Origin: Bacteroidales bacterium | Lineage (GTDB): Bacteria > Bacteroidota > Bacteroidia > Bacteroidales > P3 | NCBI GenBank assembly: GCA_017429685.1 | Contig: JAFROL010000027.1 | Coordinates: forward strand, 62,001-126,000 | Direction of reading: 5' to 3' | DNA: 64,000 nt | Shown here: piece by piece, positions 1 to 64,000 of the stretch | Layout: every line of letters begins with the position of its first letter | How positions within the stretch are numbered: position 1 is the stretch's first letter | Notes under the pieces: model-generated | Told to the model about the DNA's origin: nothing | What the model saw: only the letters and a program-made list of their open reading frames with translations | Databases searched by the model: none | Program-made: the position numbers and the translations under genes

Positions 1-222
1 GCTGTTGATGGTAATAGTGGCAATGAGGCTCAGCACCACCAGCGCGATGGCAAGACCCCAAGTCAGTTTCTCAAGGAAATCTGTGGTTTTGCGCACACCC
101 ATAATCTGGTTGGGAGCCGAAAAATTGGCAGCCAATCCGCCGCCCTTCGAATTCTGAACAAGTACTACCAGCGCTAAAACGATGCTGACAATCAGAATAA
201 GTATTACGATAAAGTTGTACAT
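1..222 (-). CDS. secG: SecG, preprotein translocase subunit (partial, C-terminus outside window)
   Basis: The minus-strand frame opens with ATG at 222 (MYNFIVILILIVSIV...) and stays open to the window edge. The 74 visible residues show the SecG pattern: a first membrane helix (about residues 2-22), a short loop with QNSKGGGLAANF, and a second helix starting near residue 55. SecG is the small accessory subunit of the SecYEG inner-membrane protein channel. The QxxKGGGL loop is the family hallmark. It lies 8 bp downstream of the 223-residue gene at 231-902, so the two are probably co-transcribed. The C-terminal tail is not visible. Confidence 0.88.
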   Translation of the reverse strand, partial: MYNFIVILILIVSIVLALVVLVQNSKGGGLAANFSAPNQIMGVRKTTDFLEKLTWGLAIALVVLSLIATITINS

Positions 223-230
223 AATTTTTA

Positions 231-902
231 TTACTTTTTATTATTTTCTAATTTTAATTTAAGTTCCGAAATTCGGATTGCAAAAGTACTACTTTTTTCG
301 GGATATTTTGCAATTAATTTTTCATATACAGCAATAGCGCGCTCGAAACGGCCCTGCTTCTCAAGCACAACTGCAAGAGTTTCAGTCTCTAACGATTCAT
401 CTTTCAGAATACTCTTTTTTCCAAGAACTTCGACAGGAACGTCCTCCATCTCGCCCAAATCTTCCGGATTGTAATTGCCCGATTCAAGAAATTTGGACAG
501 AATGACACTTTTGGGAGCCGTCTTGAACGACACCTCCTGATAGGCATTGATTTCTTTCATAATATCAAAGGCGTCAGGCTCGGCAGGAGCCTCCACCTTG
601 GCTTTCGGCTGCTCTTCGGGCTCACTGGCCTTCTGTTCCACCAGCGTGGGAAGTTCAGAATACGCAACGCGCTCCAGATAATCTTCAAATCTTGCATTAT
701 CAATGAAATACAGCATTGCTTTGGGCAGATAGCGTTCTTCCCAACCCGAGGTGCCGGTGGCCTTGTCGCACAGGATATCCATCATCTGCAACAACGAACA
801 ATACGGAAACCGGTTTTTCTCCGTCTGGATCTCCGACTTGTCCAACATTGAATATCGGCACAGATCACCCAACTTGGCATTAAACATTGATTTATCCATC
901 AT
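231..902 (-). CDS. Conserved hypothetical protein with C-terminal TPR-like helices, upstream of secG
   Basis: This 223-residue soluble protein has no signal peptide or membrane segment. Residues 1-90 are helical, the middle (about 90-115) is rich in Glu, Pro, Ala and Lys and probably disordered, and the last 50 residues (TLAVVLEKQGRFERAIAVYE then KLIAKYPEKSSTFAIRISEL) look like a single tetratricopeptide hairpin. A protein of this type commonly sits just upstream of secG in Bacteroidales. Its function is not established. Two Met codons (902 and 899) can serve as start. A TACATTTG -7-like box lies on the minus strand at 935-942. Confidence 0.7.
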   Translation of the reverse strand: MMDKSMFNAKLGDLCRYSMLDKSEIQTEKNRFPYCSLLQMMDILCDKATGTSGWEERYLPKAMLYFIDNARFEDYLERVAYSELPTLVEQKASEPEEQPKAKVEAPAEPDAFDIMKEINAYQEVSFKTAPKSVILSKFLESGNYNPEDLGEMEDVPVEVLGKKSILKDESLETETLAVVLEKQGRFERAIAVYEKLIAKYPEKSSTFAIRISELKLKLENNKK

Positions 903-934
903 TTTGTAATATTTGTATATGAAAAATCAAAATG

Positions 935-942
935 CAAATGTA
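935..942 (-). promoter_or_regulatory. Putative -7 box of the hypothetical-secG operon promoter
   Basis: On the minus strand these bases read TACATTTG, a match to the Bacteroidota TAnnTTTG -7 element, 33 bp before the start at 902. A -33 TTTG at the ideal spacing is not evident (it reads TTTT), so this is a partial match. Confidence 0.4.
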
Positions 943-1068
943 CAAGTTTTTTTTGAAATGGAAAAACAACAATTCAAAAATAATATTTTTAGTACTATAT
1001 TTCAATGATTTATGCATTAAACAAAAAAGTTTTAAACATTTTTATGTTTCCATATCAATTTTTTTGTG

Positions 1069-1076
1069 TACTTTTG
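1069..1076 (+). promoter_or_regulatory. Putative -7 box for rpmH
   Basis: TACTTTTG matches TAnnTTTG and lies 22 bp before the rpmH start, divergent from the box at 935-942. The -33 region is T-rich without an exact TTTG at 19-20 bp. Confidence 0.45.
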
Positions 1077-1097
1077 CACTTCCAAATTTGAGTAAAA

Positions 1098-1244
1098 ATG
1101 AAGAGAACATTTCAACCATCACGCAGAAAAAGAGCAAATAAGCACGGTTTTCGTCAGAGAATGTCGACGGCAAATGGCAGAAAAGTTTTGGCTGCTCGCC
1201 GCAGAAAAGGCAGAAAAAAATTAACTGTTTCCGACGAACGATAA
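1098..1244 (+). CDS. rpmH: 50S ribosomal protein L34
   Basis: This 48-residue, very basic protein begins [20 protein letters not shown] and continues [20 protein letters not shown]. That is the unmistakable L34 pattern (KRTFQPS, HGFRxRM, GRxVLxxRRxKGRxxL). L34 is a component of the large ribosomal subunit. The tail KLTVSDER is slightly longer than in E. coli L34. A -7 promoter box lies 22 bp upstream and a strong intrinsic terminator 50 bp downstream, so it is probably transcribed alone. It is short enough to be missed by length-filtered gene calling. Confidence 0.96.
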
Positions 1245-1293
1245 GAAGTGCCGGTTCTCCGTGGACGGAGATTCCGTTTGCCAATTTAAAGAT

Positions 1294-1324
1294 AAGAAGT
1301 ATTGTCGTCAATACTTCTTTTTTA
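1294..1324 (+). terminator. Intrinsic terminator after rpmH
   Basis: An 11-bp perfect stem AAGAAGTATTG / CAATACTTCTT with loop TCGT is followed immediately by a T-run (TTTTATT). Confidence 0.9.
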
Positions 1325-1465
1325 TTATAGCAACAGTCAAAACTATCGCGTCAATGGGTCGGGCAAGCCAAAAGAAGACAAAACCGAGTGCCGAAAATTG
1401 AGGCACCCTCAACGGATACCACTTCTCAACTTTAGGCCGCTCTCACCAGCAACGCTCATCAGAAA

Positions 1466-2902
1466 ATGATGAAAATGAGAAAAACAAAGCAGGAGACAAT
1501 CATCACCGATGTCGAGGTCAGCGATGCCGGAGCAGAAGGCAAAGCCATTGTGCGTCACGACGGAATGGTCATCTTTGTACCCTTTGTGGTGCCAGGCGAC
1601 GTCATCGATGTCAAGATATTCAAAAAGAAAAAGAACTACGCCGAAGGACGTGCTGTGGCCATCAAAAAACCGTCGCCACTTCGCGTCGATGCGCAATGCA
1701 CACACTTCGGCATTTGTGGTGGATGCAAATGGCAGACCTTCGACTATGCCGGACAGCTGCGATGCAAGGAACAGCAAGTGCGCGACAACCTCGAACGGCT
1801 GGGACACATCGACACATCTGGGCTACGCACCATTTGCGGTTCCGACAACATCTTCTACTATCGCAACAAACTGGAATTCACCTTTTCGACAAAACGGTGG
1901 CTGAACGATGGCGAAGTTCGGGACGAGGCCGACCCCGGCGCCGTAGGATTCCACGTGCCACAGGTCTTCGACAAAGTGTTGCCCATCGAGCACTGTGCCC
2001 TGCAGCGCGACCCCTCCAACCAGATCCGGAACGCAGTGCGCGACTTCGCCTTGCAACATTCCATCCCCTTCTACGACATACGCAACCATACGGGATTTCT
2101 CCGCAATCTGGTGATTCGCAACACTTCGACCGGCGAATGGATGGTCATCGTCATCGTTGCCGAACGCAACGACGGAATGCTGATGCCTATTATGGAATTC
2201 CTAAAAGAGACCTTCCCCTGCATCACCTCGCTCCTCTACATCATCAACGACAAATTCAACGATTCCTACACCGACCTCGAGGTCACGACCTACAGCGGAC
2301 AGGGTTACATCACCGAGCAAATGCCACGCTACGGCGGAGGCACACCGCTGCAGTTCCGCATCAATCCCAAGTCGTTCTACCAGACCAATTCCGAGCAGGC
2401 ATTCAAACTATACAGCTTCGTCGCCGAATTTGCGCAACTGCGCGGCGACGAAAATGTCTACGACCTCTACACAGGCACAGGCACCATTGCACAGTTCCTG
2501 GCAGGAATGTGCCGTCGGGTTATAGGCATAGAATATGTAGAAGAGGCCATTGTCGATGCACGCCTTAACGCCAAGCTCAACGGATTCGACAACTGCACCT
2601 TCTACGCCGGCGATATGGCCAAAGTACTCACCCCAGACTTCATCGCCGCCAACGGGCGTCCCGAAGTCGTCATCACCGATCCACCGCGAGCCGGAATGCA
2701 CGAAAAAGTAGTCGAACAGCTCCTCGCCGTCGAGGCTCCGCGCATCGTCTACGTCAGCTGCAACCCCGCCACGCAGGCTCGCGACCTGCAGATGCTGGCC
2801 GCAAAATACGACATCGGACGCATCCAGCCCGTCGATATGTTTCCTCACACACAGCACGTCGAAAACGTCGCCGAATTGACATTAAAAAAAGAAAAAAAAT
2901 AA
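1466..2902 (+). CDS. rlmD: 23S rRNA (uracil-5-)-methyltransferase, RlmD/TrmA family
   Basis: The 478-residue SAM-dependent RNA methyltransferase makes 5-methyluridine. An N-terminal TRAM domain (about residues 10-68) is followed by the iron-sulfur cysteine cluster (Cys78, Cys84, Cys87 in CTHFGICGGC, with a fourth Cys near HCALQRD). The C-terminal Rossmann domain has the SAM motif VYDLYTGTGTIAQFLAG, the DPPRAGMHEK motif and the catalytic Cys in VYVSCNPATQARDL. Length and motif order fit RlmD/RumA; the exact target uridine cannot be read from sequence. Alternative Met starts occur at codons 2 and 4. The C-terminus is Lys-rich. Confidence 0.9.
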   Translation: MMKMRKTKQETIITDVEVSDAGAEGKAIVRHDGMVIFVPFVVPGDVIDVKIFKKKKNYAEGRAVAIKKPSPLRVDAQCTHFGICGGCKWQTFDYAGQLRCKEQQVRDNLERLGHIDTSGLRTICGSDNIFYYRNKLEFTFSTKRWLNDGEVRDEADPGAVGFHVPQVFDKVLPIEHCALQRDPSNQIRNAVRDFALQHSIPFYDIRNHTGFLRNLVIRNTSTGEWMVIVIVAERNDGMLMPIMEFLKETFPCITSLLYIINDKFNDSYTDLEVTTYSGQGYITEQMPRYGGGTPLQFRINPKSFYQTNSEQAFKLYSFVAEFAQLRGDENVYDLYTGTGTIAQFLAGMCRRVIGIEYVEEAIVDARLNAKLNGFDNCTFYAGDMAKVLTPDFIAANGRPEVVITDPPRAGMHEKVVEQLLAVEAPRIVYVSCNPATQARDLQMLAAKYDIGRIQPVDMFPHTQHVENVAELTLKKEKK

Positions 2903-2930
2903 ATTTTTCATCTATTATAAAAAAAAATGC

Positions 2931-2938
2931 TATCTTTG
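2931..2938 (+). promoter_or_regulatory. Putative -7 box for the T9SS protein at 3050
   Basis: TATCTTTG is an exact TAnnTTTG match followed by GCATATTG. It implies a roughly 105-nt AT-rich 5' leader. The -33 region (TTTTTC) is imperfect. Confidence 0.45.
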
Positions 2939-3049
2939 CATATTGATATTTTGACGCCAGAAAGCTCAAATTATCACATAGCATATTGAAAAATAAATTT
3001 ATATAGATAATAAATAAATAAAGTATAACATATTAATTCAATCCGCAAG

Positions 3050-4414
3050 ATGAAAAAAAGAGTATTCTTTCTCCTTTTGGCTGCCTTGATGATGCCTCTG
3101 GCTATGAACGCTCAGCAAAATGTTTCTGTCCACATCGACACAACCATCAATGCGTGTACTTCCTACACTTGGCCTGTCAACGGAACCACCTACACCGTTA
3201 CCGGCGTACATACCGCCATTGTCGGTGACACACTCTACATACTGGACCTCACCATCAATCCAGTATATACCGAGATCATATCGACTCCCATTCAGGGCGG
3301 TTGCTCCTACACCTGGGGCGACAGTGTCATCACCACAAGCGGCACTCACACACAGACCTTCCAGTCGCAAGCCGGATGCGACAGCACCGTCACCATCACC
3401 CTCTCGCTGGCTACATCGGCAACAAAGGCCTACACTGTAACCGCCTGCGAATCCTACATTTGGAAGGGTGACACCCTCACAACAACGGGCACCACCATTA
3501 TCAACGACAACTCTAACCCCCTGTGCGACTCAATCCTGACGCTCAACCTCACCATCATCGAACCCGAGCAGAAAGCCTACGACACCACCATCTCGGCTTG
3601 CGAATCGACCCGTTTCCGCTGGTCGCCGCAGTCCAGCTGGATCAACATCTCGCAAGATGGCTACACCATCACCTCCGAGGCCTACTCGCAGACTTCCGCT
3701 GCCACCCTCGACCGTTTCCACCCCCGTACCGTTGAAAGATGCTTCGATAGCCTCGTAACCATCCATTTCAACATCAAGAGCAAAAACTACACAACCCTTA
3801 ACGAAAAAGCCTGCGACGAATTGACCATTTCCGTCTTCGGTAAAGATTATACATACTACTACAGCAAAAACGATACCATCACCGGTGCAAAGGGCGTCAA
3901 CGGATGCGACAGCGTCGTCTATATGAATGTCACCATCAACAAGACTCCCGAGGTTTACATCAGCGGCGATCTCCGCGTGGCTCCCGGCTCAAACGCCACT
4001 CTCTATGCCAACAGCAACCAGACCGTCAACTACACCTGGAGCAATGGTTCCACCGCCGAAAGCATCACCCTGACCAATGTCCAGGCCAATACCGAAGTGT
4101 CGCTGAACGGCAAGAACGTCTCCACGGGATGCGAGAGCACATCGCACGTCACCATTATGGCCAACCTGGCCATCGATGGCGTCAACGACGATATGCTGCA
4201 GATCTACCCCAACCCCACCACTGCCCAGATCAACATCAACAGCACTGAGAGCCTGAAGAACGTCAGCATCTTCAACTTGATGGGCCAGCAGGTCATCAAT
4301 GCCGGCACCGCCAACGTCATCGACCTTGGCAACCTCAACAACGGCTCCTACGTAGTCCGCATCGAGATGAACAACGGCACCGTGGCAACTCGCACCGTAG
4401 TCCTCAGCAAGTAA
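3050..4414 (+). CDS. Secreted repeat protein with T9SS type A sorting domain
   Basis: The 454-residue protein starts MKKRVFFLLLAALMM and has a clear signal peptide ending near AMNAQQ. The body holds about five degenerate repeats, each with an early AC-ES-Y-W/AC-TSYTW core and a late CDSxxTLNLTI element (around residues 35, 80, 125, 180 and 250). The last 80 residues, from IYPNPTTAQININS through NVSIFNLMGQQV to NGSYVVRIEM, form a type A T9SS sorting domain. The sequence therefore predicts export by Sec, then T9SS, to the cell surface or medium. No enzymatic motif is visible; an adhesin or structural role is only a guess. A strong terminator follows. Confidence 0.85.
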   Translation: MKKRVFFLLLAALMMPLAMNAQQNVSVHIDTTINACTSYTWPVNGTTYTVTGVHTAIVGDTLYILDLTINPVYTEIISTPIQGGCSYTWGDSVITTSGTHTQTFQSQAGCDSTVTITLSLATSATKAYTVTACESYIWKGDTLTTTGTTIINDNSNPLCDSILTLNLTIIEPEQKAYDTTISACESTRFRWSPQSSWINISQDGYTITSEAYSQTSAATLDRFHPRTVERCFDSLVTIHFNIKSKNYTTLNEKACDELTISVFGKDYTYYYSKNDTITGAKGVNGCDSVVYMNVTINKTPEVYISGDLRVAPGSNATLYANSNQTVNYTWSNGSTAESITLTNVQANTEVSLNGKNVSTGCESTSHVTIMANLAIDGVNDDMLQIYPNPTTAQININSTESLKNVSIFNLMGQQVINAGTANVIDLGNLNNGSYVVRIEMNNGTVATRTVVLSK

Positions 4415-4434
4415 GAAACATTACCCCTAACACC

Positions 4435-4464
4435 AAAGCGTTCGGAGCTCCGGACGCTTTTTTT
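4435..4464 (+). terminator. Intrinsic terminator after the T9SS gene
   Basis: The stem AAAGCGTTCGG / CCGGACGCTTT has an AGCT loop and one G-T pair and runs into a T7 tract. It ends only 8 bp before the apbE start. Confidence 0.88.
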
Positions 4465-4472
4465 GTGAACGA

Positions 4473-5510
4473 ATGAAACCACGCCATAGACTTACAGCCG
4501 CTGTGCTGACGGCACTTTTGCTGTCCCTAACGGCCTGCAAACCGACAATGCTGCCCATACGCCTGCAAGGCGAAGCACAAGGCACATACTACAGCATCAC
4601 CTACTTCGATGCCCAGCAGCGCAACCTGCAGAGCTCTATCGATTCGCTGCTCGACGACTTCGACCAGACAGCGTCGCTATGGGTCGACAGCTCCTTGCTG
4701 CGACGTGTAAACGACAATAGCGACAGCGTCGTCAACGAGCTTTTCGCCACCCTGGTAGACCTGTCGGCCGAAATGAACAGATTCACCAACGGAGCCTTCG
4801 ACTGTACCGTAGGCCGCTTGGTCAATGCCTGGGGATTTGGATTTTCCAAACGCGAAAAGCTGACCGACGAAACCATCGACAGCCTGCTGCAACACGTGGG
4901 CAAACAGCCCTCCGCAGTGCGCCATCACGACGGTACCATCGTGGTGCGCAAAGCCGACAGCGAAGCCTCGTTCGACTTCAACGCCATAGCCCAAGGCTAC
5001 GCCAGCGACCTCATCGGCCACTTCCTTGAACAGCAAGGCATCACCGACTATATTGTCGACATCGGAGGCGAAGTCTGCGCCAAAGGTGCCAAACCCGACG
5101 GCAAAGCCTGGCGCGTAGGCATTGAACGCCCCGCCGAGAACCGCTACAGCAGTCCCGAAGTGGAGACAACCATCGAGCTGCGCGACAAAGCCGTGGTGAC
5201 CTCCGGCAACTATCGCAAGTATTACGAAAAAGACGGCGTGCGCTATTCGCACACCATCGACCCCTCCACGGGACATCCCGTCGAGCACAGCCTCCTCAGC
5301 GTTTCGGTCGTCGACACCGCTGCCTGGCGTGCCGACGCACTGGCAACGGCATTTATGGTTATGGGACTCGACAAAGCCCTCCAATTCATCGGACAGCACA
5401 GCGACGATTCCGGCACACAAGCCGTATTCTTCATCTACAGCGACAGCACCGGCTACAAAACCTATGCCACACCGGCATTCGAAGCGCTAATCATCGAACA
5501 AAATCTTTAA
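4473..5510 (+). CDS. apbE: FAD:protein FMN transferase (ApbE), lipoprotein
   Basis: This 345-residue ApbE-family enzyme transfers FMN from FAD to Thr/Ser of periplasmic or membrane flavoproteins such as Rnf/Nqr subunits. A lipobox (LLSLTAC, Cys22) indicates a lipid-anchored periplasmic protein. Family motifs in order are GEAQGTYYSITYFD, a WGFGFSK segment, DFNAIAQGYASDLI, the nucleotide-binding VDIGGEVCAKG, VVTSGNYRKYYE and the metal-binding YSHTIDPSTGHPV. Length is normal for ApbE. It starts 8 bp after the previous terminator, so it depends on read-through or a promoter inside that gene. It is 23 bp upstream of yicC. Confidence 0.93.
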   Translation: MKPRHRLTAAVLTALLLSLTACKPTMLPIRLQGEAQGTYYSITYFDAQQRNLQSSIDSLLDDFDQTASLWVDSSLLRRVNDNSDSVVNELFATLVDLSAEMNRFTNGAFDCTVGRLVNAWGFGFSKREKLTDETIDSLLQHVGKQPSAVRHHDGTIVVRKADSEASFDFNAIAQGYASDLIGHFLEQQGITDYIVDIGGEVCAKGAKPDGKAWRVGIERPAENRYSSPEVETTIELRDKAVVTSGNYRKYYEKDGVRYSHTIDPSTGHPVEHSLLSVSVVDTAAWRADALATAFMVMGLDKALQFIGQHSDDSGTQAVFFIYSDSTGYKTYATPAFEALIIEQNL

Positions 5511-5533
5511 AAACATCATATCCCCCTTACCAA

Positions 5534-6403
5534 ATGAAATCAATGACAGGATTTGCCAAAAGGCAATGCAATATCGACGAAAAAAAATACACCATCGAGA
5601 TAAAGACTCTCAACAGCAAGCAGATGGATGCCATCGTAAAGATTCCTATCGACCTGAAGGAACACGAGCTTGAAATCCGCTCTATGCTGAACCGCCTGGA
5701 GCGCGGCAAGATCGACTTCATCATCAGCGAAGAGCTGGGCACAGCCAACGCCACGCAGCTCGACCGCGAGTTGGCCACACAGCGCTACAACGAGTTGCGA
5801 TCACTGACCGCCGACCTGGGCAGCACCGCCGACGAGAAAATGCTGCTCGGCATAGTCCTGCAGCAGAGCGACATCTGGATTGCCAACAACGACCTGACGC
5901 TTAACGGCGACGAATGGGTCGAACTTGCCAACAACATCAGCGGCGCCATCGACGAACTCGACGCCACGCGATGCCACGAAGGCGCAATCCTGAAGTGCGA
6001 CTTCATAAAGCATCTGGACCTTATAGAGAACTACCTGAACCAGATTCCACAATACGAAAGCGAACGCATCGATACCGCCAAAGAGCGCATCCGCACCCTG
6101 ATGAACGATGCTGCCGTAAAAGACGTCGACGAGAACCGCTTCGAGCAGGAGCTCATCTACTATCTCGAAAAGCTCGACATTACCGAAGAGAAGGTACGCC
6201 TTAAGAAACACATCGACTATTTCCGCGAAGTGATGGACAACGAGGAAGGCAGCGGAAAGAAACTTGGTTTCATAGTCCAAGAGATGGGCCGAGAGATTAA
6301 CACCACCGGTTCAAAAGCCAACCACGTCGAAATCCAGCGTCTGGTCGTCAAGATGAAAGACGAGCTGGAAAAAATCAAAGAGCAGCTGGGGAATATACTC
6401 TAG
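5534..6403 (+). CDS. yicC: YicC family endoribonuclease-like protein
   Basis: The 289-residue protein starts MKSMTGFAKRQCNIDEKKYT, the conserved YicC N-terminus (MTGF, then EIKTLNSKQMD). It ends with the DUF1732 block FIVQEMGREINTTGSKANH, which is nearly invariant in the family. YicC proteins act in RNA turnover in characterised bacteria. The central part is a long helical segment (about residues 120-220). The stop codon is itself part of the ACTAGT-type array that begins at 6400. Confidence 0.92.
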   Translation: MKSMTGFAKRQCNIDEKKYTIEIKTLNSKQMDAIVKIPIDLKEHELEIRSMLNRLERGKIDFIISEELGTANATQLDRELATQRYNELRSLTADLGSTADEKMLLGIVLQQSDIWIANNDLTLNGDEWVELANNISGAIDELDATRCHEGAILKCDFIKHLDLIENYLNQIPQYESERIDTAKERIRTLMNDAAVKDVDENRFEQELIYYLEKLDITEEKVRLKKHIDYFREVMDNEEGSGKKLGFIVQEMGREINTTGSKANHVEIQRLVVKMKDELEKIKEQLGNIL

Positions 6404-6469
6404 TAATACTAGTAGCACTAGTATTACTAGTATAACTAGTATTACTAGTATAACTAGTCCTACTAGTAA
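6400..6469 (+). repeat. ACTAGT/ACTAGTATTA short tandem array (copy 1)
   Basis: About seven CTAGT units about 10 bp apart alternate as ACTAGTATTA and ACTAGTATAA. The array begins on the last codon and stop of yicC. A second array of the same kind lies at 16904-16970. CTAG is otherwise scarce in the window. Confidence 0.9.
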
Positions 6470-6470
6470 C

Positions 6471-6502
6471 AGAGAGGCCCGCGCTGATGCGCGGGCCTCT
6501 CT
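6471..6502. terminator. Strong GC-rich hairpin between convergent genes
   Basis: A 14-bp perfect stem (AGAGAGGCCCGCGC and its complement) with a TGAT loop lies between yicC (+) and the T9SS gene (-). The T-tract on either side is weak, but position and stability suggest a bidirectional terminator. Confidence 0.75.
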
Positions 6503-6528
6503 CTATTTGTTGATGTCAACTAAAAGGA

Positions 6529-9129: not shown

Positions 9130-9243
9130 TGTAATTGAATTTTGATTAATAAAAATTTTTCTCCGTTTCAAATCTACAACCCCCTTGTTTTCAGTATATT
9201 TAACACACTTCGACAAGGCAGATGCAGGGTTGGTATTTGGATG

Positions 9244-9274
9244 CAAATTTAGCACAAAAAAACAAACTGGCAAA
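9244..9274 (-). promoter_or_regulatory. Bacteroidota promoter for the 6529-9129 gene
   Basis: On the minus strand: TTTG (9274-9271), a 19-bp spacer, TAAATTTG (9251-9244). This is an exact match to TTTG-N19-TAnnTTTG and gives a leader of about 110 nt. Confidence 0.8.
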
Positions 9275-9361
9275 AAAAATTTGATTATTTTTTGTTTTTT
9301 TAAGAATGTAGCCCTCGCGACAAGCCCCCCTCGCCAGGCCGGAACGGCAGGGTCTGGACCG

Positions 9362-54397: not shown

Positions 54398-54508
54398 ATT
54401 GCCCCAAACATCACTTTTAACAAAAATAATTTTGTATTTTTTTCTTATTTTGCAACCCGAAACGCAAAATCTGCTTGTGCAGGTTTTATTAAAAAAGAAT
54501 ACTATAAT

Positions 54509-55504: not shown

Positions 55505-55531
55505 TATTCACGAAATCAAATTATTAAATAT

Positions 55532-56770
55532 ATGAAACGAGTAGTTATTACCGGACTGGGTTGTATATCACCCCTTGGCAACAACGTAGACACAATGTGG
55601 AGCGAACTGCTGAAAGGCTCTTGCGCCATAGATACCATAAAATCAATAAACACCGACGCTCTCACCGTCAAGGTGGCCGCCGAGGTGAAAGACTTCAGAC
55701 CCGAAGATTTCGACATCGACAAGGCTATGATTCGCCATAACGACCGCTATGCGCTCTATGCCATAGCCGCAGCAACGCAGGCTATGCGCGACAGCGGCCT
55801 CGAGGTGGGCAAAGACGTGGATTCCAGCCGTTTCGGCTGCGCCATCGGATCGGGCATCGGTGGCATCCAGACCTTCTGCCGCGAGCACGCATCGCTGCTC
55901 GAGAACGGTCCGCGCCGCGTGTCGCCCCTTTTCATCCCCGAAATGATTGCCAACATCGCATCGGGCAACACAGCCATCGTCTTCCACGCCGAAGGTCCCA
56001 ACCTGCCGGTGGTGACGGCCTGCGCAACAGGCACACATTCAATCGGTGAGGCCTACCGTATGATTCGCGAAGGCCGCGCCGACGCTATGATTACCGGCGG
56101 TACCGAGGCTGCCATCTGCGAAATAGCCATCGCCGGCTTCGCCAACAGCAAGGCCCTCTCGACCTGCGAGGACCCGATGGCCGCATCGCTGCCCTTCGAC
56201 CTGCGCCGCAAAGGCTTCGTTATGGGCGAAGGCGCTGGCGTTATGATTCTGGAAGACTATGAGATAGCTCGCCGCCGCGGAGCACACATCTATGCCGAGG
56301 TGTGCGGTTACGGCAACAGCTGCGACGCTTTCCACTACACCGCACCGCGCGCCGACGCCAAATGCGCCACCAACTGCATCAAGTGGGCTCTGGAAGAGGC
56401 CGGATACAAAGAGGGCGAAAAGGTGTATATCAACGCCCACGGCACCGGCACGCCGCTCAACGACAAGACCGAGACCCTGGCCATCAAGCAGGCTATGGGC
56501 GAAACGGCAGCACGCCAGGCTGTCATCAGCAGCACCAAGTCGATGATGGGCCATATGCTCGGAGCAACAGGCGCCATCGAACTGGTCATCTGCGCCAAGA
56601 CGCTGCAGGATGGCAAGGTGGCCCCCACCATCCATCTGGACCAACCCGACCCCGAATGCGACCTCGACTACACGCCGCACACCGCTCGCGACTACGCTGC
56701 CGACCTGACAATCAGCAACTCGTTCGGCTTCGGCGGACAGAACGCCTGCGTGGCACTGCGCAAAATCTGA
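55532..56770 (+). CDS. fabF: 3-oxoacyl-ACP synthase II (FabF)
   Basis: The 412-residue KAS I/II condensing enzyme has the N-terminus MKRVVITGLGCISPLGNNVD, nucleophile Cys in VVTACATGTHSIGEAYRM, and histidines in YINAHGTGTPLNDKTE and STKSMMGHMLGATGA. SFGFGGQNACVAL ends the fold. Length and motifs are standard. It is followed 38 bp later by fabZ. Confidence 0.95.
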   Translation: MKRVVITGLGCISPLGNNVDTMWSELLKGSCAIDTIKSINTDALTVKVAAEVKDFRPEDFDIDKAMIRHNDRYALYAIAAATQAMRDSGLEVGKDVDSSRFGCAIGSGIGGIQTFCREHASLLENGPRRVSPLFIPEMIANIASGNTAIVFHAEGPNLPVVTACATGTHSIGEAYRMIREGRADAMITGGTEAAICEIAIAGFANSKALSTCEDPMAASLPFDLRRKGFVMGEGAGVMILEDYEIARRRGAHIYAEVCGYGNSCDAFHYTAPRADAKCATNCIKWALEEAGYKEGEKVYINAHGTGTPLNDKTETLAIKQAMGETAARQAVISSTKSMMGHMLGATGAIELVICAKTLQDGKVAPTIHLDQPDPECDLDYTPHTARDYAADLTISNSFGFGGQNACVALRKI

Positions 56771-56808
56771 AAAAAATTGGTTATTATATATTGAAATCAT
56801 AAAGTATT

Positions 56809-57225
56809 ATGACTAGAGAAGAAATCAAAAACTATCTGCCACACCGCGAGCCTATGCTGCTTGTCGACGATGTGACTATGGAAGGCGACACTGCCGTAGG
56901 TCACTACCACGTGCGTGGCGACGAATATTTCGTTCAGGGCCACTTCCCGGGCTATCCTGTTGTACCCGGAGTGATACTGTGCGAAATAATGGGCCAGTGC
57001 TGCTGCACGCTGATGCTCGAAGAACTGCCCGGACGCCTCACTTTCTATGCCGGTATGGACAAGGTGCGCTTCAAAAACCAGGTGCGCCCCGGCGACACCA
57101 TCGAGGTGCGCGGCAAAATCACAGCCAAACGCGGACTGACATTCTTTGTCGATGCCGAAGCCAAGGTCGACGGCAAACTGTGCGCCAAAGGCAGCCTGAT
57201 TTTTATGCTGGCAGACAAGAAATAG
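56809..57225 (+). CDS. fabZ: 3-hydroxyacyl-ACP dehydratase (FabZ type)
   Basis: The 138-residue hotdog-fold dehydratase has LPHREPMLLVDDVTMEGDTA, catalytic His in VQGHFPGYPVVPGVI and the helix CEIMGQCCCTLMLEEL containing the catalytic Glu. It converts 3-hydroxyacyl-ACP to trans-2-enoyl-ACP. The GQCCCTLM segment is unusually cysteine-rich for this family. Confidence 0.93.
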   Translation: MTREEIKNYLPHREPMLLVDDVTMEGDTAVGHYHVRGDEYFVQGHFPGYPVVPGVILCEIMGQCCCTLMLEELPGRLTFYAGMDKVRFKNQVRPGDTIEVRGKITAKRGLTFFVDAEAKVDGKLCAKGSLIFMLADKK

Positions 57226-57321
57226 CATCCAAATTTATTAAAAAGCGCTCCGAAAATTCTGCCGACCGATATACGACAAGCATTTTTTCGGAGGAATAAA
57301 AACATCAATAAACGATAAACA

Positions 57322-58071
57322 ATGAAACTGTTAGAAAATAAAACCGCATTGATCACCGGTGCCTCGCGCGGCATCGGCAGAAGCCACGCCCTCCTCTTTG
57401 CCGAAGAAGGCGCCAACATCATCTTTACCGACCTCAAAGCCAACGAGAACAGCGACTCGCTGCTCGCCGAGCTGCGCGCCAAAGGCGTCCGCGCCGACTT
57501 CCTCGCCTCGAATGCCGCCGACAACGCACAGGCCAACGAGGTGGCACAGTGGGTGGCCGACAACTACGGCCGTCTCGACATCCTGGTCAACAACGCAGGC
57601 ATCACCAAGGACAACCTCATCCTGCGAATGAGCGTCGAAGACTGGAACCTCATTATGGACGTCAACCTGCGCTCGGTGTTCAACTACACCAAAGCTTTCG
57701 CCCCGATGATGATGAAACAGCGCGCAGGCTCGATCATCAACATCAGCTCCATCGTTGGACTCAACGGCAACGCCGGCCAGTGCAACTACTCGGCATCCAA
57801 AGCCGGAATCATCGGCTTCACCCGTTCGATAGCCAAAGAGCTGGGCTCGCGCAACATACGCTGCAACGCCGTGGCTCCCGGATTCATCGAGACCCCGATG
57901 ACGCAACAGCTGCCCGAAGACGTGCGCAAAGACTGGATGACCAAGATTCCGCTGCGCCGCGGCGGCCTCGACACCGATGTGGCACACGTGTCGCTCTTCC
58001 TGGCCAGCGACCTGGCTTCGTATGTCACCGGACAGGTCATCAGCTGCGATGGCGGCCTGGCTATCAACTAA
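57322..58071 (+). CDS. fabG: 3-oxoacyl-ACP reductase (FabG)
   Basis: The 249-residue short-chain dehydrogenase has the cofactor loop TGASRGIG (13-20), NNAG (90-93), catalytic Ser142/143, Tyr156 and Lys160 (NYSASK), and VTGQVISCDGGLAIN at the C-terminus. NADPH-dependent reduction of 3-oxoacyl-ACP is expected. It lies 96 bp after fabZ and 34 bp before acpP. Confidence 0.94.
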   Translation: MKLLENKTALITGASRGIGRSHALLFAEEGANIIFTDLKANENSDSLLAELRAKGVRADFLASNAADNAQANEVAQWVADNYGRLDILVNNAGITKDNLILRMSVEDWNLIMDVNLRSVFNYTKAFAPMMMKQRAGSIINISSIVGLNGNAGQCNYSASKAGIIGFTRSIAKELGSRNIRCNAVAPGFIETPMTQQLPEDVRKDWMTKIPLRRGGLDTDVAHVSLFLASDLASYVTGQVISCDGGLAIN

Positions 58072-58105
58072 AACAACATCAACGAAATAAAAAAGCACAC
58101 TGATA

Positions 58106-58363
58106 ATGAACATCAAAGAAATGACCACTGAACAGCTGACCGAAGAAATCAGCGCCATCATCGAAGAACGTCTTGGTGTGGCAGCCTCGGAAATCACCCC
58201 CGAGAAGAACCTCATCAACGACCTCGGCGCCGACTCGCTCGACAGCGTGGAACTGATAATGTCCATCGAACAAAAGTTCGGCATCACCATCCCCGAAGAA
58301 GCAGCCGAAAACATCAAGACCGTTGGCGACATCATCAATTACGTCAAAGAAAACAATAACTAA
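58106..58363 (+). CDS. acpP: Acyl carrier protein
   Basis: The 85-residue acidic protein has the phosphopantetheine site GADSLDSVELIM (Ser at about residue 46). It carries growing acyl chains. The N-terminus MNIKEMTTEQLTEEI is somewhat longer than in E. coli AcpP. It is followed 22 bp later by etfB. Confidence 0.94.
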   Translation: MNIKEMTTEQLTEEISAIIEERLGVAASEITPEKNLINDLGADSLDSVELIMSIEQKFGITIPEEAAENIKTVGDIINYVKENNN

Positions 58364-58385
58364 CCAGAACAAAACAGAACACAAT

Positions 58386-59186
58386 ATGTCATTCAAAATA
58401 GTAGTATTGGCCAAGCAGGTGCCCGACACACACAATGTCGGTGCCGACGCTATGAACGCCGACGGCACCGTGAACCGTGCCGCTCTGCCCACCGTCTTCA
58501 ACCCCGAAGACCTCAAGGCACTGGAAATGGCACTGCGCGTAAAAGACCAGATGTCTGACGCCATAGTCACCGTGGTGACGATGGGTCCGCCGCGTGCCGC
58601 AGAAATCATCAAGGACGCCCGTATGCGCGGAGCCGACGACGGCTTCGTGCTCAGCGATGCCCGCTTTGCCGGTGCCGACACCCTGGCCACCTCTTATGCC
58701 CTTTCGCAGGCCATCCGCCAGCTGGGCCACGTCGACCTGATTTTCGGTGGCCGTCAGGCCATCGACGGCGACACCGCACAGGTGGGTCCCCAGGTGGCCG
58801 AAAAGCTCGAAATACCGCAAATCACCTACGCCGAAGAACTCATTGCCGTCGACAGCAAGCAGATCACCATCCGCCGCCGCCTCGAGCGTGGCACCGAGTG
58901 CGTCAAAGCCTCTCTGCCCGTGCTCGTCACCGTCACCTCGGCCGGAGCCGACTGCCGCTTCCCCAACGCGCACCGTATGCTGCAACAGGCCAAAGAGGAG
59001 GTGCGTATGATCAACGCCGACAGCATCGATGCCGATATGGAACGCTTGGGCCTCAAAGGCTCGCCCACCAAGGTCAAGAAAATCGAGAACGTCGTGTTGG
59101 CACACAAAGAGTCGGTGGTGCTCCAACCTACCGAAGAAGCCCTCAACGAACTTTCGGCAACACTGATCAAAGAGCATATTCTGTAA
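58386..59186 (+). CDS. etfB: Electron transfer flavoprotein, beta subunit
   Basis: I start at ATG 58386 (MSFKIVVLAKQVPDTHNVGA), giving 266 residues. The EtfB signature VTVVTMGPPRAAEIIKDARM and the C-terminal AHRMLQQAKEEV fit; the AMP/FAD-site region VDLIFGGRQAIDGDTAQVGP is intact. With EtfA it carries electrons between acyl-CoA dehydrogenases and other redox partners. It lies 22 bp after acpP. Confidence 0.93.
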   Translation: MSFKIVVLAKQVPDTHNVGADAMNADGTVNRAALPTVFNPEDLKALEMALRVKDQMSDAIVTVVTMGPPRAAEIIKDARMRGADDGFVLSDARFAGADTLATSYALSQAIRQLGHVDLIFGGRQAIDGDTAQVGPQVAEKLEIPQITYAEELIAVDSKQITIRRRLERGTECVKASLPVLVTVTSAGADCRFPNAHRMLQQAKEEVRMINADSIDADMERLGLKGSPTKVKKIENVVLAHKESVVLQPTEEALNELSATLIKEHIL

Positions 59187-59216
59187 TTAACAACCTTAAC
59201 GAAACGAAGACGAAAA

Positions 59217-60239
59217 ATGAATAACGTATTAGTATATTGCGAGTTGTCGGAGAGAAACCAGATAGCCGACATCAGCCTCGAGCTTTGCACCAAAGGCCGT
59301 CAGCTGGCCACACAGCTTGGCTGCCGCCTGCAGGCCGCCGTGCTGGGCTGCAACGTCAAAGCCGCCGCCGAGTCTCTTTACCCTTACGGCGTCGACGATG
59401 TCTTTTTGGCCGACGACCGCCGTCTGGCACCTTACCGCACAATGCCCCACTTCGACGTCCTTTCCAAGCTCATACAGTCACAGAAACCCGACATCGTCCT
59501 CTTCGGTGCCTCGAGCGTGGGCCGCGACCTGGCACCGCGCATCGCCTCGTTCCTGCGCTGCGGACTTACGGCCGACTGCACATCACTCGAAATCGGTTCG
59601 CACCAGGATGCCAAAAGCGGCAAGAGCTACGACAACATCCTGATGCAGATGCGCCCCGCCTTCGGCGGCAACATCATCGCCACCATCGTGTGCCCCGAAA
59701 CGCGTCCTCAGATGGCCACCGTGCGCGAAGGCGTGATGAAGAAAGAAATTCTCGACCCCAACTATAAGGGTACCATCATCCCCGTCAGCGTCGACGCATC
59801 GCTCGACGCCGCCGACAAGGCCGTCCAGATCCTGAGCCGCGAAATCGAAGAGCAGAAAATCGACATCAAGGGTGCCCAGATCATCGTCGCCGGAGGCTAC
59901 GGTATGGGCAGCAAGGAGAACTTCCAGCTGCTGCACCAGTTTGCCCACCTCATAGGAGGCAGCGTCGGTGCCACCCGCGCCGCCGTCGATGCCGGCTTCT
60001 GCGAAGGCGAACGCCAGATAGGCCAGACCGGCGTCACTGTGCGCCCCAAACTCTACATAGCCTGCGGCATCAGCGGCGCCGTCCAGCACCGCGCCGGTAT
60101 GGAGCAGAGCGCCAAGATCATCAGCATCAACACCGACCCCGACGCTCCTATCAACGCCATTGCAGACTATACCATCATCGGCGACGTGATGACCGTCATT
60201 CCTCAGTTTATGGCTTGTTACAAAAACAATCTGAAATAA
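59217..60239 (+). CDS. etfA: Electron transfer flavoprotein, alpha subunit
   Basis: The 340-residue EtfA ends in the FAD-binding domain with VAGGYGMGSKENFQLLHQFA, HLIGGSVGATRAAVDAGF, VRPKLYIACGISGAVQHRAG and IISINTDPDAPINAIADYTI. The N-terminal domain (about 1-190) pairs with EtfB. It lies 30 bp after etfB and 57 bp before the acyl-CoA dehydrogenase gene; the spacer has a TTAACATTAACC repeat. Confidence 0.93.
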   Translation: MNNVLVYCELSERNQIADISLELCTKGRQLATQLGCRLQAAVLGCNVKAAAESLYPYGVDDVFLADDRRLAPYRTMPHFDVLSKLIQSQKPDIVLFGASSVGRDLAPRIASFLRCGLTADCTSLEIGSHQDAKSGKSYDNILMQMRPAFGGNIIATIVCPETRPQMATVREGVMKKEILDPNYKGTIIPVSVDASLDAADKAVQILSREIEEQKIDIKGAQIIVAGGYGMGSKENFQLLHQFAHLIGGSVGATRAAVDAGFCEGERQIGQTGVTVRPKLYIACGISGAVQHRAGMEQSAKIISINTDPDAPINAIADYTIIGDVMTVIPQFMACYKNNLK

Positions 60240-60241
60240 CG

Positions 60242-60265
60242 TTAACATTAACCTTAACGTTAACC
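60242..60265 (+). repeat. TTAACATTAACCTTAACG repeat in the etfA-acd spacer
   Basis: It is identical over 24 bp to 26538-26561 in the iorA-iorB spacer. TTGACGTTAATT follows. Confidence 0.85.
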
Positions 60266-60296
60266 CCTATGTTGACGTTAATTAGAACAAGGAATT

Positions 60297-61940
60297 ATGA
60301 ATTTTTACACAGATAACGAGAATCTTAGCTTCTACCTGCACCACCCCGAAATGGAACAGGTAGTAGCCGTAAAAGAGAAGAATTATGCTGAAGCCGGCGT
60401 ACACCCCGAGGCTCCGGCCAACGCCGAAGAGGCTGTGGAGCAGTACGATATGGTGATGCGTCTGCTGGGCGACATCGCCGGCGACGTCATTGCACCCAAC
60501 GCCGAAGAGGTGGACCACGTGGGTCCCTCGCTCGTCGACGGCCACGTCGAGTACGCCCCCGGCACTCGCCGCAACCTCGACGCCCTCATCCAGTCGGGCC
60601 TCTACGGTATGGCTCTCGAACGCAAATACAACGGCCTCAACTTCCCCCGTGTGGTCGAGGTTATGGCCGCCGAGATGATTGCTCGCGCCGACGTAGGCTT
60701 CGCCACCATCTGGGGCCTGCAGGACTGCGCCGAGACCATCCAGCATTTCGCCAGCGAAGAACTGAAAGACAAATACTTGCCCCGCATCTACCAGGGTGCC
60801 ACCTGCTCGATGGACCTCACCGAGCCCGACGCCGGCAGCGACCTGCAGTCGGTGCGCCTCAAGGCCACCTGGGATGAGGCCTCCAACTGCTGGCGCCTGA
60901 ACGGCGTGAAGCGTTTCATCACCAATGGCGACGCCGACCTGCACCTGGTGCTGGCACGCAGCGAAGAGGGCACCAACGACGGACGCGGCCTCTCCTACTT
61001 CGTTTTCGACAAAGCCGACGGCGGAATGACCGTGCGCCGCATCGAGAACAAAATGGGCATCAAGGGCTCGCCGACCGCCGAGCTGCAGTTCACCAACGCC
61101 CCCGCACAGATCGTCGGCGAACGCCGCCTGGGACTTATCAAATACGTGATGTCGCTGATGAACGGAGCCCGTCTGGGCGTCGGCGCACAGTCCATCGGAC
61201 TCTGCGAGGCCGCCTGCCGCGAAGCCGAAGCCTATGCCGCCAGCCGCGAACAGTTCGGTCACGCCATCAACCAGTTCGTCGCCGTCCAGGACCTCCTCGA
61301 CCAGATGCGCGCACGCACCGACGGCGCCCGCAGCCTGATGTACGAAACGGCACGCTACGTCGACCTCTCGTCCAGCTCCAAGGCCGCCTCGCGCGTGGCC
61401 GACATCCTGACGCCCCTCGTCAAGCTCAACGCCAGCGAGTTCGCCAACCGTTGCGCCTACGACTGCATCCAGGTACACGGCGGTAGTGGATTTATGAAAG
61501 AATACGCCTGCGAACGCCTCTATCGCGACGCACGCATCCTCAGTATCTACGAAGGCACCAGCCAGCTGCAGGTCGTCGCCGCTATGAAGGGCATCGCCAG
61601 CGGCGCCTACCTCAAGCAGATCGAGAGCTACGACGGACGTGCCGCCGAAGGCCTCGCCGCCGCACCCAACGCCGAGATGCAGCACTGCCTCGACGTGCTT
61701 CGCAAAGCCACAGGCCTCTACAGCAAGCTCTATGACCTCGCCGCTGCCGAAGGCACCACCAGCGAGCGTTTCGAGCACTCCACACGCGCCCTCACCGAGG
61801 TACTGAGCAACATCATTATGGGCTACCTGCTGCTGCTCGACAGCCAGCGCGACGCCCGCTTCCTCAAGTCCTGCAAGTACTTCGTCAAGGAAAGCATTGG
61901 CCAAGTCAGCCAGCACCTCGCCGAACTTGAGAACTGCTAA
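60297..61940 (+). CDS. Acyl-CoA dehydrogenase family protein
   Basis: The 547-residue flavoprotein has an acyl-CoA dehydrogenase core: GLYGMALERKYNGLNFPRVV, TCSMDLTEPDAGSDLQSVRL (FAD site), RFITNGDADLHLVLARS, YAASREQFGHAINQFVAVQD and the catalytic Glu region RILSIYEGTSQLQVVAAM. A C-terminal helical extension of about 100 residues is typical of the long Bacteroidales members. It follows the etfBA genes, its expected redox partner. It oxidises or reduces an acyl-thioester; substrate chain length unknown. Confidence 0.9.
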   Translation: MNFYTDNENLSFYLHHPEMEQVVAVKEKNYAEAGVHPEAPANAEEAVEQYDMVMRLLGDIAGDVIAPNAEEVDHVGPSLVDGHVEYAPGTRRNLDALIQSGLYGMALERKYNGLNFPRVVEVMAAEMIARADVGFATIWGLQDCAETIQHFASEELKDKYLPRIYQGATCSMDLTEPDAGSDLQSVRLKATWDEASNCWRLNGVKRFITNGDADLHLVLARSEEGTNDGRGLSYFVFDKADGGMTVRRIENKMGIKGSPTAELQFTNAPAQIVGERRLGLIKYVMSLMNGARLGVGAQSIGLCEAACREAEAYAASREQFGHAINQFVAVQDLLDQMRARTDGARSLMYETARYVDLSSSSKAASRVADILTPLVKLNASEFANRCAYDCIQVHGGSGFMKEYACERLYRDARILSIYEGTSQLQVVAAMKGIASGAYLKQIESYDGRAAEGLAAAPNAEMQHCLDVLRKATGLYSKLYDLAAAEGTTSERFEHSTRALTEVLSNIIMGYLLLLDSQRDARFLKSCKYFVKESIGQVSQHLAELENC

Positions 61941-61963
61941 CCAAAAGCGTTCCCTTTCAATAC

Positions 61964-62001
61964 AAAAAGCGGCTCAAAGTCAATCTTTGAGCCGCTTTTT
62001 T
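61964..62001 (+). terminator. Intrinsic terminator of the fab-etf-acd region
   Basis: The 16-bp stem AAAAAGCGGCTCAAAG / CTTTGAGCCGCTTTTT has a TCAAT loop and a T-run. A second hairpin, AGTAGCCTCC / GGAGGCTACT (62024-62064), lies beyond it near the end of the convergent gene. Confidence 0.9.
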
Positions 62002-62080
62002 CATTCTCATCTATTCAATCCGGAGTAGCCTCCTGGTTGGTGACGACGGATGGCGGAGGCTACTGACAATGCGACAAGCG

Positions 62081-64000
62081 TCATTTCTTGACAAACTTGC
62101 GCACAATGTTGACACCTTCGGCCTGTATGCGAACGAAATAAGAGCCTTGGGGCAAATCGGAGATATTCAGGCGGATACTGTTCACGCTGTCACTATTGCC
62201 ATCGACAATTGTCGTCTGGCAGGTGCGGCCGCTGAGGTCGATAATCGCAACTTCATAACTCCGGCGTGACTGGTCAGGATTCTGTATTTCAATGTATACC
62301 ACATCGCTGGCAGGGTTGGGATAGACATTGATGGTTGAGGTTTGTGCAGCAGGATTTTCGATGCCCGAAGACTGCTGGAAGTTGGCGGTATAAGTCGTTG
62401 TTGCTGTCACAACAACCTGACGTGGGTTATTATGGTTGCCGTCGCTCCATCCGGCGAAGACGTAGCCCGGATTGGGGTGTGCCTCGATTTCGATGGTATC
62501 CATATAGTGATATGTCCCGCCGCCGCTGACAGTACCGCCCTGCGTGGGATTGGCACCAACATTGATGGTGATTTCGCGCCCCACGAAGACTGCACGGATT
62601 GTGGAAGCCTCGACTGGACGGAAGGCAAAAACATAAGTATCAACGACATCGCCAGTATTAAGCTGAACATCATTCATACGGTCCACCCCATTCACATAGA
62701 GTGCATCGAGATGATACTCAAATTTTTGGCACTTGATATAGACATTAGTTGTCTGCTCCGAACTAAGACTAACCTGTTGGCCGCAAAGCGAATTGTCGGA
62801 GTCGGCTGATGTAGTGACCGTGCCGACAATGCCGCCTTCGCATTCGAATGTCACAGGATAAGTGCTTGGCTGCTGCATAGTTATCGTAACGTCGTCGATT
62901 TTCATCCAATACATATCAACGATGTCGAAATGGCGGAAAGCGATGTAGACGTGCTGTCCGGCATAATCGTCAAGGTTGATGGTTTTCTGCACCCAGTTGA
63001 CGGTAGTGATATCATATTCCTGCAAAAGCGTGAAGTCGCTCTGGTTCATCCCGGTAGTCGAGATGTAAACGCCGTAATGCTCAGCGTAATAGTTCTGGTC
63101 GACGGCACCGACATAAAAGGAGAGGGAAAAACCATTGCCCTGCGGCAGATATATCTGCGGCGAAATGAGCCAGTTGTCCGGTTCCAGGGCACCCGGTCCG
63201 TTGATATATGAGGCCGAGCTGATGCAACCCGAACCGGTGTGGGCCTGTTCGGACGATGAGAACACCGAGGGGTCCCACGTGTAGCCGTCGCCGTCGGCAT
63301 CAAGCACCGTCCAGCAGGCAACCGGATCGCTGCTCTCGAAGCCCATCGTGTAGGGGAACGTGCTGATTTCGGAGCATTCTACAACGTTGAGGACGACGGT
63401 ATCGCGAGCAGAGCCGTTGGCGTTGGTGGCCGTGGCAATGACATTGTAGGTTCCCGGGGTGTTCCATACGGCTGTTGCCGTATTGCCCGTCGCCGTCGAA
63501 GGGCTGCCGCCATTGAGTTGCCAGCTGACGGTGGCACCGGTGCTGGCCATAGCGCTGAATGTCAATTGCTGGCCTGTGGCGGCCATCGTCGGCCCACTGG
63601 CAATGACCGTGGGGGCGGCGTTGGCCGAAGCTTTGGTGACACACTTGATGAGCCACGAAAAACTCTGGTTGAGTCCGACATCAGGGTTGGCGTGCGACCA
63701 CGAGGTCCCGTTGGTCGAGAGCCAGTTGCTGTTAAGGTCATTGACGTATGCACAGGCAGCCGCGGGATAGAGGACGTCGGTGTTGGAGATGATGACCCAA
63801 AGGTTTTGGCCCGAAACGATAGCTTCAGGTGTAGTCAGAGCGCAGTCGACATAGCCTCCGGCCAACGACGTGCCGATATAGTAGGTCTGGGAGCATAGCT
63901 GTGTCTGCGGGGCAGTTGTCCCGCCTTGATAGAGCGTGACCGTGTAGGTTCCAGTGTCGCCCGAAGCGACATAAAGCAGGACGCTCATCACCGAATCGCG
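62081..64000 (-). CDS. Large secreted adhesin-like protein with T9SS type A sorting domain (partial, N-terminus outside window)
   Basis: The frame is open to the window edge (first visible residues RDSVMSVLLY), so the N-terminus is missing; 639 residues are visible. Order: an anchor/jelly-roll domain (about 1-130), a PKD-like domain (PTVIASGPTMAATGQQLTFS to NANGSARDTVVLNV), a gingipain-type cleaved-adhesin domain (VACWTVLDADGDGYTWDPSV, NWLISPQIYLPQ, IDDVTI), a divergent InlB repeat (GGTVSGGGTYHYMDTIEIEA, FAGWSDGNHNNPRQVV) and the sorting domain (INVYPNPASDVVYIEI, VAIIDLSGRTCQT, LPQGSYFVRIQAEG). Predicted surface adhesin or protein-binding factor. Confidence 0.85.
   Translation of the reverse strand, partial: RDSVMSVLLYVASGDTGTYTVTLYQGGTTAPQTQLCSQTYYIGTSLAGGYVDCALTTPEAIVSGQNLWVIISNTDVLYPAAACAYVNDLNSNWLSTNGTSWSHANPDVGLNQSFSWLIKCVTKASANAAPTVIASGPTMAATGQQLTFSAMASTGATVSWQLNGGSPSTATGNTATAVWNTPGTYNVIATATNANGSARDTVVLNVVECSEISTFPYTMGFESSDPVACWTVLDADGDGYTWDPSVFSSSEQAHTGSGCISSASYINGPGALEPDNWLISPQIYLPQGNGFSLSFYVGAVDQNYYAEHYGVYISTTGMNQSDFTLLQEYDITTVNWVQKTINLDDYAGQHVYIAFRHFDIVDMYWMKIDDVTITMQQPSTYPVTFECEGGIVGTVTTSADSDNSLCGQQVSLSSEQTTNVYIKCQKFEYHLDALYVNGVDRMNDVQLNTGDVVDTYVFAFRPVEASTIRAVFVGREITINVGANPTQGGTVSGGGTYHYMDTIEIEAHPNPGYVFAGWSDGNHNNPRQVVVTATTTYTANFQQSSGIENPAAQTSTINVYPNPASDVVYIEIQNPDQSRRSYEVAIIDLSGRTCQTTIVDGNSDSVNSIRLNISDLPQGSYFVRIQAEGVNIVRKFVKK

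Follow-up and report, generated by a model that had tools for sequence, protein, structure and literature searches.

Why should 64,000 consecutive bases of a bacterial genome contain not a single copy of the tetranucleotide CATG? The stretch in question, referred to as a whole as the window, comprises bases 62001-126000 of contig C46 of the Bacteroidales draft genome G000 (2,652,054 bp, 52 contigs, 96% complete). An earlier note on this DNA had claimed that CATG was missing where about 250 copies were expected, and that other palindromic words were present. Both statements are borne out by machine counting, which gave 0 copies of CATG where the tri- and dinucleotide composition of the window predicts 248.3 (Poisson log10 P = -108) and identified CATG as the sole absentee among all 256 tetranucleotides, the next-lowest observed-to-expected ratios (O/E) being those of CTAG (0.26) and GATC (0.29). 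The depletion is genome-wide: the entire G000 assembly has 293 copies against 10,275 expected (O/E 0.029, the lowest of all tetranucleotides, followed by CTAG at 0.15 and GATC at 0.33), and CATG is not common elsewhere in it. Total loss, which the note had ascribed to the chromosome, thus applies to the window but not to the genome. Very probably, to judge from gene content and genome comparison, the word was purged through self-restriction by a resident Type II restriction-modification (R-M) system that targets exactly CATG and is encoded on contig C19 of the same genome by adjacent genes for a nuclease of 275 amino acids (aa) and a cytosine-C5 methyltransferase (Table 1).

Table 1. Positions of the CATG-free stretch and of the genes assigned to the putative CATG-specific R-M locus of G000
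Feature	Position	Strand	Remarks
CATG-free stretch	window, 1..64000		Sample of the CATG-free G000 backbone; the R-M locus predicted to be responsible is not in the window but on contig C19
Putative nuclease, 275 aa, PD-(D/E)XK-like	C19:18888-19715	-	D-x8-DLK stretch and upstream E
Predicted C5-cytosine methyltransferase	C19:20062-21435	+	PF00145, 5.4e-62; six C5 motifs present
Small Xre-type helix-turn-helix (HTH) gene, presumed	C19, between nuclease and methyltransferase		Basis: open reading frame (ORF) in G132
Flanking gene	C19:21749-22663		Flanks the CATG systems of G000, G042, G132 and G045

The C19 locus was traced via a C5 methyltransferase, 77% identical to the C19 enzyme, that lies beside a gene of the ICEA family (PF05315, the family of NlaIII) in the congener G138. 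Its separate, neighbouring nuclease and methyltransferase genes have the orthodox layout of a Type II R-M system. The methyltransferase is apparently intact: all six C5 motifs that were sought were found, among them PCQ, ENV, QKRERV and GN, and a weak HTH_17 match, under the Pfam cut-off, precedes the catalytic part. The nuclease had no match in Pfam, PADLOC or the PDB sequences. In an alignment of nine family members, D-x8-DLK is present in all 8 rows that cover that stretch and the upstream E is invariant in 9 of 9. No relatives of the nuclease were found in viral contigs, searched with one peptide pattern, or in plasmids. The Xre ORF of G132 (L175:1176-1499) matches HTH_3; in G000 only the intergenic DNA of the corresponding place was read. 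The nuclease is predicted to cut CATG, and the methyltransferase to mark it with 5-methylcytosine (5mC). The earlier note had stated that no CATG-cutting enzyme is encoded in the window, with which the location of this candidate system agrees, and had suggested, as an example, an enzyme of NlaIII/FatI-type specificity. A CATG endonuclease is indeed likely from the genome comparison given below, but a search for the NlaIII/ICEA family that was positive in three congeners found no such gene in G000, where a different candidate nuclease with an adjacent C5 methyltransferase was identified instead.

Depletion was measured in 120 genomes of the genus as the count of YRCATGYR divided by that of its reversed, GTAC-form control, values below 0.5 being scored as depleted. 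The median was 1.44, with 109 genomes not depleted and 11 depleted, namely G088 (0.010), G042 (0.018), G000 (0.028), G085 (0.087), G132 (0.102), G107 (0.114), G045 (0.114), G138 (0.257), G035 (0.321), G083 (0.368) and G016 (0.474). By rpoB, which was detected in 82 of the 120, the genomes nearest to G000 are G042, G088, G132 and G045 (98-99% identity), all depleted; none of the next five, G120, G108, G135, G005 and G131 (96-97%), is depleted. The depleted genomes G138 and G016 are more distant (90-91%), and the rpoB search gave no match in the depleted G107, G085, G035 and G083. These identities, which are not a tree, suggest that CATG was lost recently in the history of the genus, and more than once. 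In other families of the order, 1 of 32 genomes falls below 0.5. Of three close relatives, one comes from the rectum of a sheep and another from a reindeer.

The distribution of candidate genes follows that of depletion closely. The 275-aa nuclease was detected in four of the 120 genomes (G000, G042, G132 and G045; E<=0.001), the C5 methyltransferase in five (the same four and G138; E<=1e-60), ICEA in three, all of them depleted (G088, G107 and G138), and an HPPY-motif methyltransferase of N6/N4 type, of the kind found next to ICEA, in four (G085, G088, G107 and G138; E<=1e-20). The eight genomes with any such CATG-type R-M gene are exactly depletion ranks 1-8 of the 120, and at the thresholds used none of the 109 non-depleted genomes has one (Fisher 2.0e-10, uncorrected for kinship). 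As a control, the nuclease encoded on contig C40 of G000 matched in 12 genomes, 2 of them depleted (p 0.30), and at 66% identity or more in 7, 1 of them depleted (p 0.50). This 247-aa nuclease (C40:119983-120726) and an N6_N4 methyltransferase (C40:118766-119791) form a pair, itself CATG-free, that had been the first candidate for the responsible system; it was rejected because most genomes that have a homologue are undepleted (10 of 12, and 6 of 7 where the homologue is close).

The association extends beyond the 120 genomes. A scan that covered 84,980 species, with one genome apiece, by two short peptide patterns of the 275-aa nuclease yielded nine nuclease loci, three of them in congeners and the others in six genomes outside the 120. 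Five of these six are depleted (YRCATGYR/control 19/316, 55/111, 6/53, 7/340 and 3/272, the second only narrowly under 0.5), as opposed to 1 of 32 in the order's other families, a loose comparison (Fisher 7e-5); one of the depleted genomes is Ca. Erginobacter, of the phylum Auribacterota. Six of the seven displayed loci (L183 and L185-L189; L190 is cut off) have a C5 gene in the neighbourhood of the nuclease, as do G042 and G045. Vsr homologues near the C5 methyltransferases in two loci (L187:8462-8989 and L188:10910-11338) fit the prediction of 5mC. G000 has a Vsr homologue as well (C2:113163-113846), on a contig other than that of its C5 methyltransferase. CATG is depleted in the hosts of these systems and not in their system-free relatives, with G156, G035, G083 and G016 as exceptions, which is the pattern expected of site avoidance.

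The several CATG-type genes are found in varied combinations. A C5 methyltransferase adjoins ICEA, in addition to the HPPY-motif enzyme, in G138; a homologue adjoins an ICEA homologue on the viral contig L202, and another shares one gene cluster with two ICEA homologues in L186. That cluster (L186:980-6087) consists of the two ICEA homologues, a 350-aa protein, a nuclease of the 275-aa type, a 222-aa protein and a single C5 methyltransferase. The 3.8-kb locus of G085 encodes a methyltransferase followed by a 382-aa protein that is 75% identical to a 386-aa protein of G088; no ICEA was seen in these 3.8 kb, and the 382-aa protein is the sole other likely R-M gene seen beside the methyltransferase. 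Distant members of this 350-386-aa family are encoded in L186 and L187. Beside the G085 system lies a homologue of the G000 flanking gene (C19:21749-22663). BLASTP comparisons among the 275-aa family, ICEA and the 350-386-aa family gave nothing significant (best E 0.60), and three 275-aa family members compared with two ICEA proteins gave nothing better than E 0.60. In L167 (G035:C2), a distant homologue of the C40-type nuclease (35%) lies near a homologue of the same flanking gene.

How the sites were lost can be read from a comparison of G000 with 59 kb of G120, which ranks highest by rpoB among the non-depleted genomes (38,110 bp aligned, 79% identity; the two genomes alone are the basis for the assumed direction of change, with no outgroup). 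Only 1 of the 170 aligned CATG sites of G120 is kept in G000, as against 21-60% retention for six control words. All 16 flanking contexts were lost alike (169 of 170 sites), so the counter-selected word is CATG itself and no longer site. Codon phase was assigned in 36 genes with 161 sites, of which 1 is kept (frames were accepted if at least 55% of mismatches fell at third positions). With a slash marking the codon boundary, phase CAT/G lost 37 of 38 sites, 27 of them to CACG; phase.CA/TG. lost 12 of 12, eight to CCTG and two to CGTG; and of 111 sites in phase ..C/ATG, 95 became TATG (65), GATG (25) or AATG (5). The protein is unchanged across the two codons at 125 of the 161 sites. Every codon phase has a synonymous exit from CATG, and that exit is mostly the one taken. 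The loss of 160 of 161 coding sites, mainly by the change that is synonymous in the given phase, argues for counter-selection rather than mutation, and the very strong counter-selection postulated in the earlier note is supported. In the aligned DNA, GATC is similarly scarce in the non-depleted G120 and in G000 (48 and 59 copies; O/E in G000 0.33 for the genome and 0.29 for the window), and its scarcity is probably older than the loss of CATG.

The CATG copies that remain in G000 are clustered. We defined islands as groups of at least three CATG with gaps of at most 2.5 kb; since CATG itself is used in the definition, their density arises partly by construction. The 26 islands (75,100 bp, 2.8% of G000) hold 242 copies, or 3.22/kb compared with a genome-wide expectation of 3.87/kb, and the other 2,576,954 bp (97.2%) hold 51 (O/E 0.005, about 1/200 of expectation). 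Some islands are at contig ends and could be mis-binned; others are interior to the long contigs C11, C18, C23, C37 and C46. An island on C11 carries an AlwI-type R-M system (a RE_AlwI protein and two D12 methyltransferases) adjoining an AbiH gene; these two methyltransferases were considered and rejected as candidates for the responsible system. A scan of ten further island proteins recognised Cas7 and Csd1, another C5 methyltransferase and a protein with a HATPase domain; three more belong to ordinary families (TetR regulator, ABC transporter, Sel1/PAD) and the last three are matchless. We infer that the islands are recently arrived DNA, most strongly in the case of the defence islands. RNA genes have no synonymous exit from CATG; among the 30 transfer RNA genes found in G000, three contain the word, one of these inside an island. 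Eight conserved motifs of ribosomal RNA genes, sought as exact patterns in the assembly, gave 0 hits. An identical 26-bp sequence containing CATG occurs near the ends of three contigs (C21:44, C25:31966 and C48:43698) and is probably a repeat that broke the assembly.

The most economical reading of these data is a resident CATG-specific R-M system that imposes a cost of self-restriction. During long residence of such a system, or of substitutes with the same target, every CATG would be a small standing liability, as any site left briefly unmethylated after replication, through enzyme dilution or upon loss of the locus could be cut. Selection against this cost would then remove sites singly, mostly by whichever base change is synonymous in the codon concerned. 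New CATG would enter mainly with horizontally acquired DNA, and methylation would let such sites persist for a while.

Several observations weigh against this interpretation. G035, G083 and G016 are depleted and yielded no CATG-type gene; two of them are 75-76% complete, and G016 is listed as 100% complete. G156, the genome of L186, possesses the nuclease, two ICEA homologues and the C5 methyltransferase, yet is undepleted (608/384), which could reflect recent arrival of the genes or mis-binning of the 6.4-kb contig. In L189, stops interrupt the nuclease frame in its upstream portion though the genome is strongly depleted, and G157 is just below the threshold (0.495). Five of the eight genomes that carry the association are close kin (G000 and its four nearest relatives by rpoB), so that these are not eight independent events. 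Finally, defence-like genes account for only 4 of the 10 island proteins scanned.

The earlier note had suggested exclusion of the motif instead of its modification, with a CATG nuclease acting in the absence of reliable self-methylation and the cell surviving because it has no sites. Near-total loss outside the islands (51 sites in 2.58 Mb) agrees with this proposal, but the assembly retains 293 sites, 242 of them in islands, several of which are inside long contigs; if the nuclease is active, a cell without protection should not survive with them. Moreover, a C5 methyltransferase with readable motifs adjoins the nuclease, and a methyltransferase accompanies the nuclease or ICEA in each displayed locus that is not cut by a contig end, as L190 is. 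We therefore regard exclusion without modification as highly unlikely. The order of events might also have been the reverse, genomes that had become CATG-poor for another reason being permissive hosts for CATG R-M systems. G088 ranks close to G000 in the rpoB comparison but carries a different CATG system, and the system of G085 sits beside the homologue of the G000 flanking gene, which would be expected if systems were exchanged in genomes already free of CATG. However, this scenario leaves the first loss unexplained, depletion coincides with the genes in five of the six further genomes, one of them from another phylum, and G156 holds such genes in a CATG-rich genome; we consider it very improbable.

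Mutational erosion, in which 5mC within CATG deaminates and the C to T change removes the word in the absence of selection, would suit a C5-type methyltransferase and the predominance of C to T where that change is synonymous (65 of 111 in phase ..C/ATG). Yet the other two phases were lost as fully (37/38 and 12/12), mainly by T to C or A to C/G, so that deamination covers at most the TATG part of the losses, and G088, G107 and G085 are strongly depleted with an N6/N4-type HPPY methyltransferase, this C5 family not having been found there. There is hardly any likelihood that erosion accounts for the depletion. An ordinary word bias of the genus, through codon or dinucleotide usage and with no restriction, would accommodate the low CTAG and GATC of G000 but can practically be dismissed, as 109 of the 120 genomes are not below 0.5, the median is 1.44, and in the aligned DNA of G000 and G120 GATC numbers 59 and 48 whereas CATG numbers 1 and 170.

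Homologues of the C5 methyltransferase were found in ten viral loci, seven at 74-80% identity and three at 31-35%. Among the seven, L204, L205 and L206 are nearly CATG-free (2/52, 1/45 and 1/49 copies relative to expectation), L200 and L203 are lowered (21/67 and 19/59), and L201 and L202 show little or no depletion (66/103 and 27/25); the three distant ones have 47/62, 49/84 and 73/85. No CATG nuclease families were found in the stretch examined of L204-L206, which are from IMG/VR, and modification and site loss perhaps both serve these viruses as anti-restriction. A clustered regularly interspaced short palindromic repeat (CRISPR) array of G000 (C37:11120-11640, L041) lies next to genes for Cas7 and Csd1 where a CATG island ends. 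Three of its spacers were tried in pieces: those from two spacers match one viral contig of IMG/VR exactly (L199), and one spacer is matchless. In 10,585 of its 48,578 bases, L199 has 5 CATG against 38 expected, which counts in favour of a resident CATG system.

Avoidance of R-M sites is itself a known phenomenon, reportedly described in earlier works by Gelfand and Koonin in 1997 and Rocha et al. in 2001. According to the literature cited here, Type II target words are rarer than expected in the genomes of present or former hosts of the system, which has been attributed to occasional methylation failure and to system lifespan (PMC4687349, Rusinov et al. 2015), the former being the usual explanation (PMC6629147). 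The depletion in G000 is of the same kind and differs in its near elimination of the word (O/E 0.005 outside islands) and in the clustering of the residue. The iceA/HpyI system also targets CATG, and in Helicobacter pylori with M.HpyI of that system, CATG is the densest methylated motif and the endonuclease can be missing, as stated in PMC10423294; the missing endonuclease may be the reason why H. pylori keeps CATG. NlaIII and iceA-HpyI (ICEA, PF05315) resemble the G000 system in having the same predicted target, and ICEA is present in three depleted congeners. Unlike them, the G000 nuclease has no ICEA match and shows D-x8-DLK, and its partner is a C5 rather than an adenine methyltransferase. 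UpaP162 of Ureaplasma parvum, compared by description only, is reported to be a CATG cutter with no recognisable homology; for its host genome, N6-methyladenine and N4-methylcytosine are reported and no 5mC, unlike the predicted 5mC of G000 (both from PMC6191088). The G000 methyltransferase shares its core motifs with Type II C5 methyltransferases (PF00145), and its CATG target is a prediction. Literature titles and abstract openings, among which subscription journals were mostly outside coverage, reported neither a C5 methyltransferase for CATG nor a nearly absent tetranucleotide. What looks new, site avoidance aside, is how far the depletion goes, the family of the nuclease and the way in which dissimilar CATG nucleases are exchanged.

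The same word has been purged in most genomes that house any of several dissimilar CATG systems. One might go further and regard CATG as a taboo word upheld in different lineages by interchangeable nucleases. At least three dissimilar families (the 275-aa family, ICEA/NlaIII and the 350-386-aa family) would target it, have methyltransferases in common or trade them, take each other's place at a single chromosomal site and accumulate in one cluster such as that of L186, so that the taboo locks in; we offer this as a tentative idea that is somewhat more likely to be wrong than right. If it is true, a CATG-free genome would take up further CATG nucleases cheaply, and any CATG would be a mark of recent foreign DNA. 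In such a genome, CATG is in any case a candidate sign of recently acquired DNA. G000 and its relatives offer an extreme example, open to clean comparison, of an entire genome rewritten by R-M systems. With near relatives at hand that have or lack the system, one can measure what self-restriction costs, how long purging takes and which codon route it follows, and genome statistics here predict what is recognised by a C5 methyltransferase and by a nuclease family not described before.

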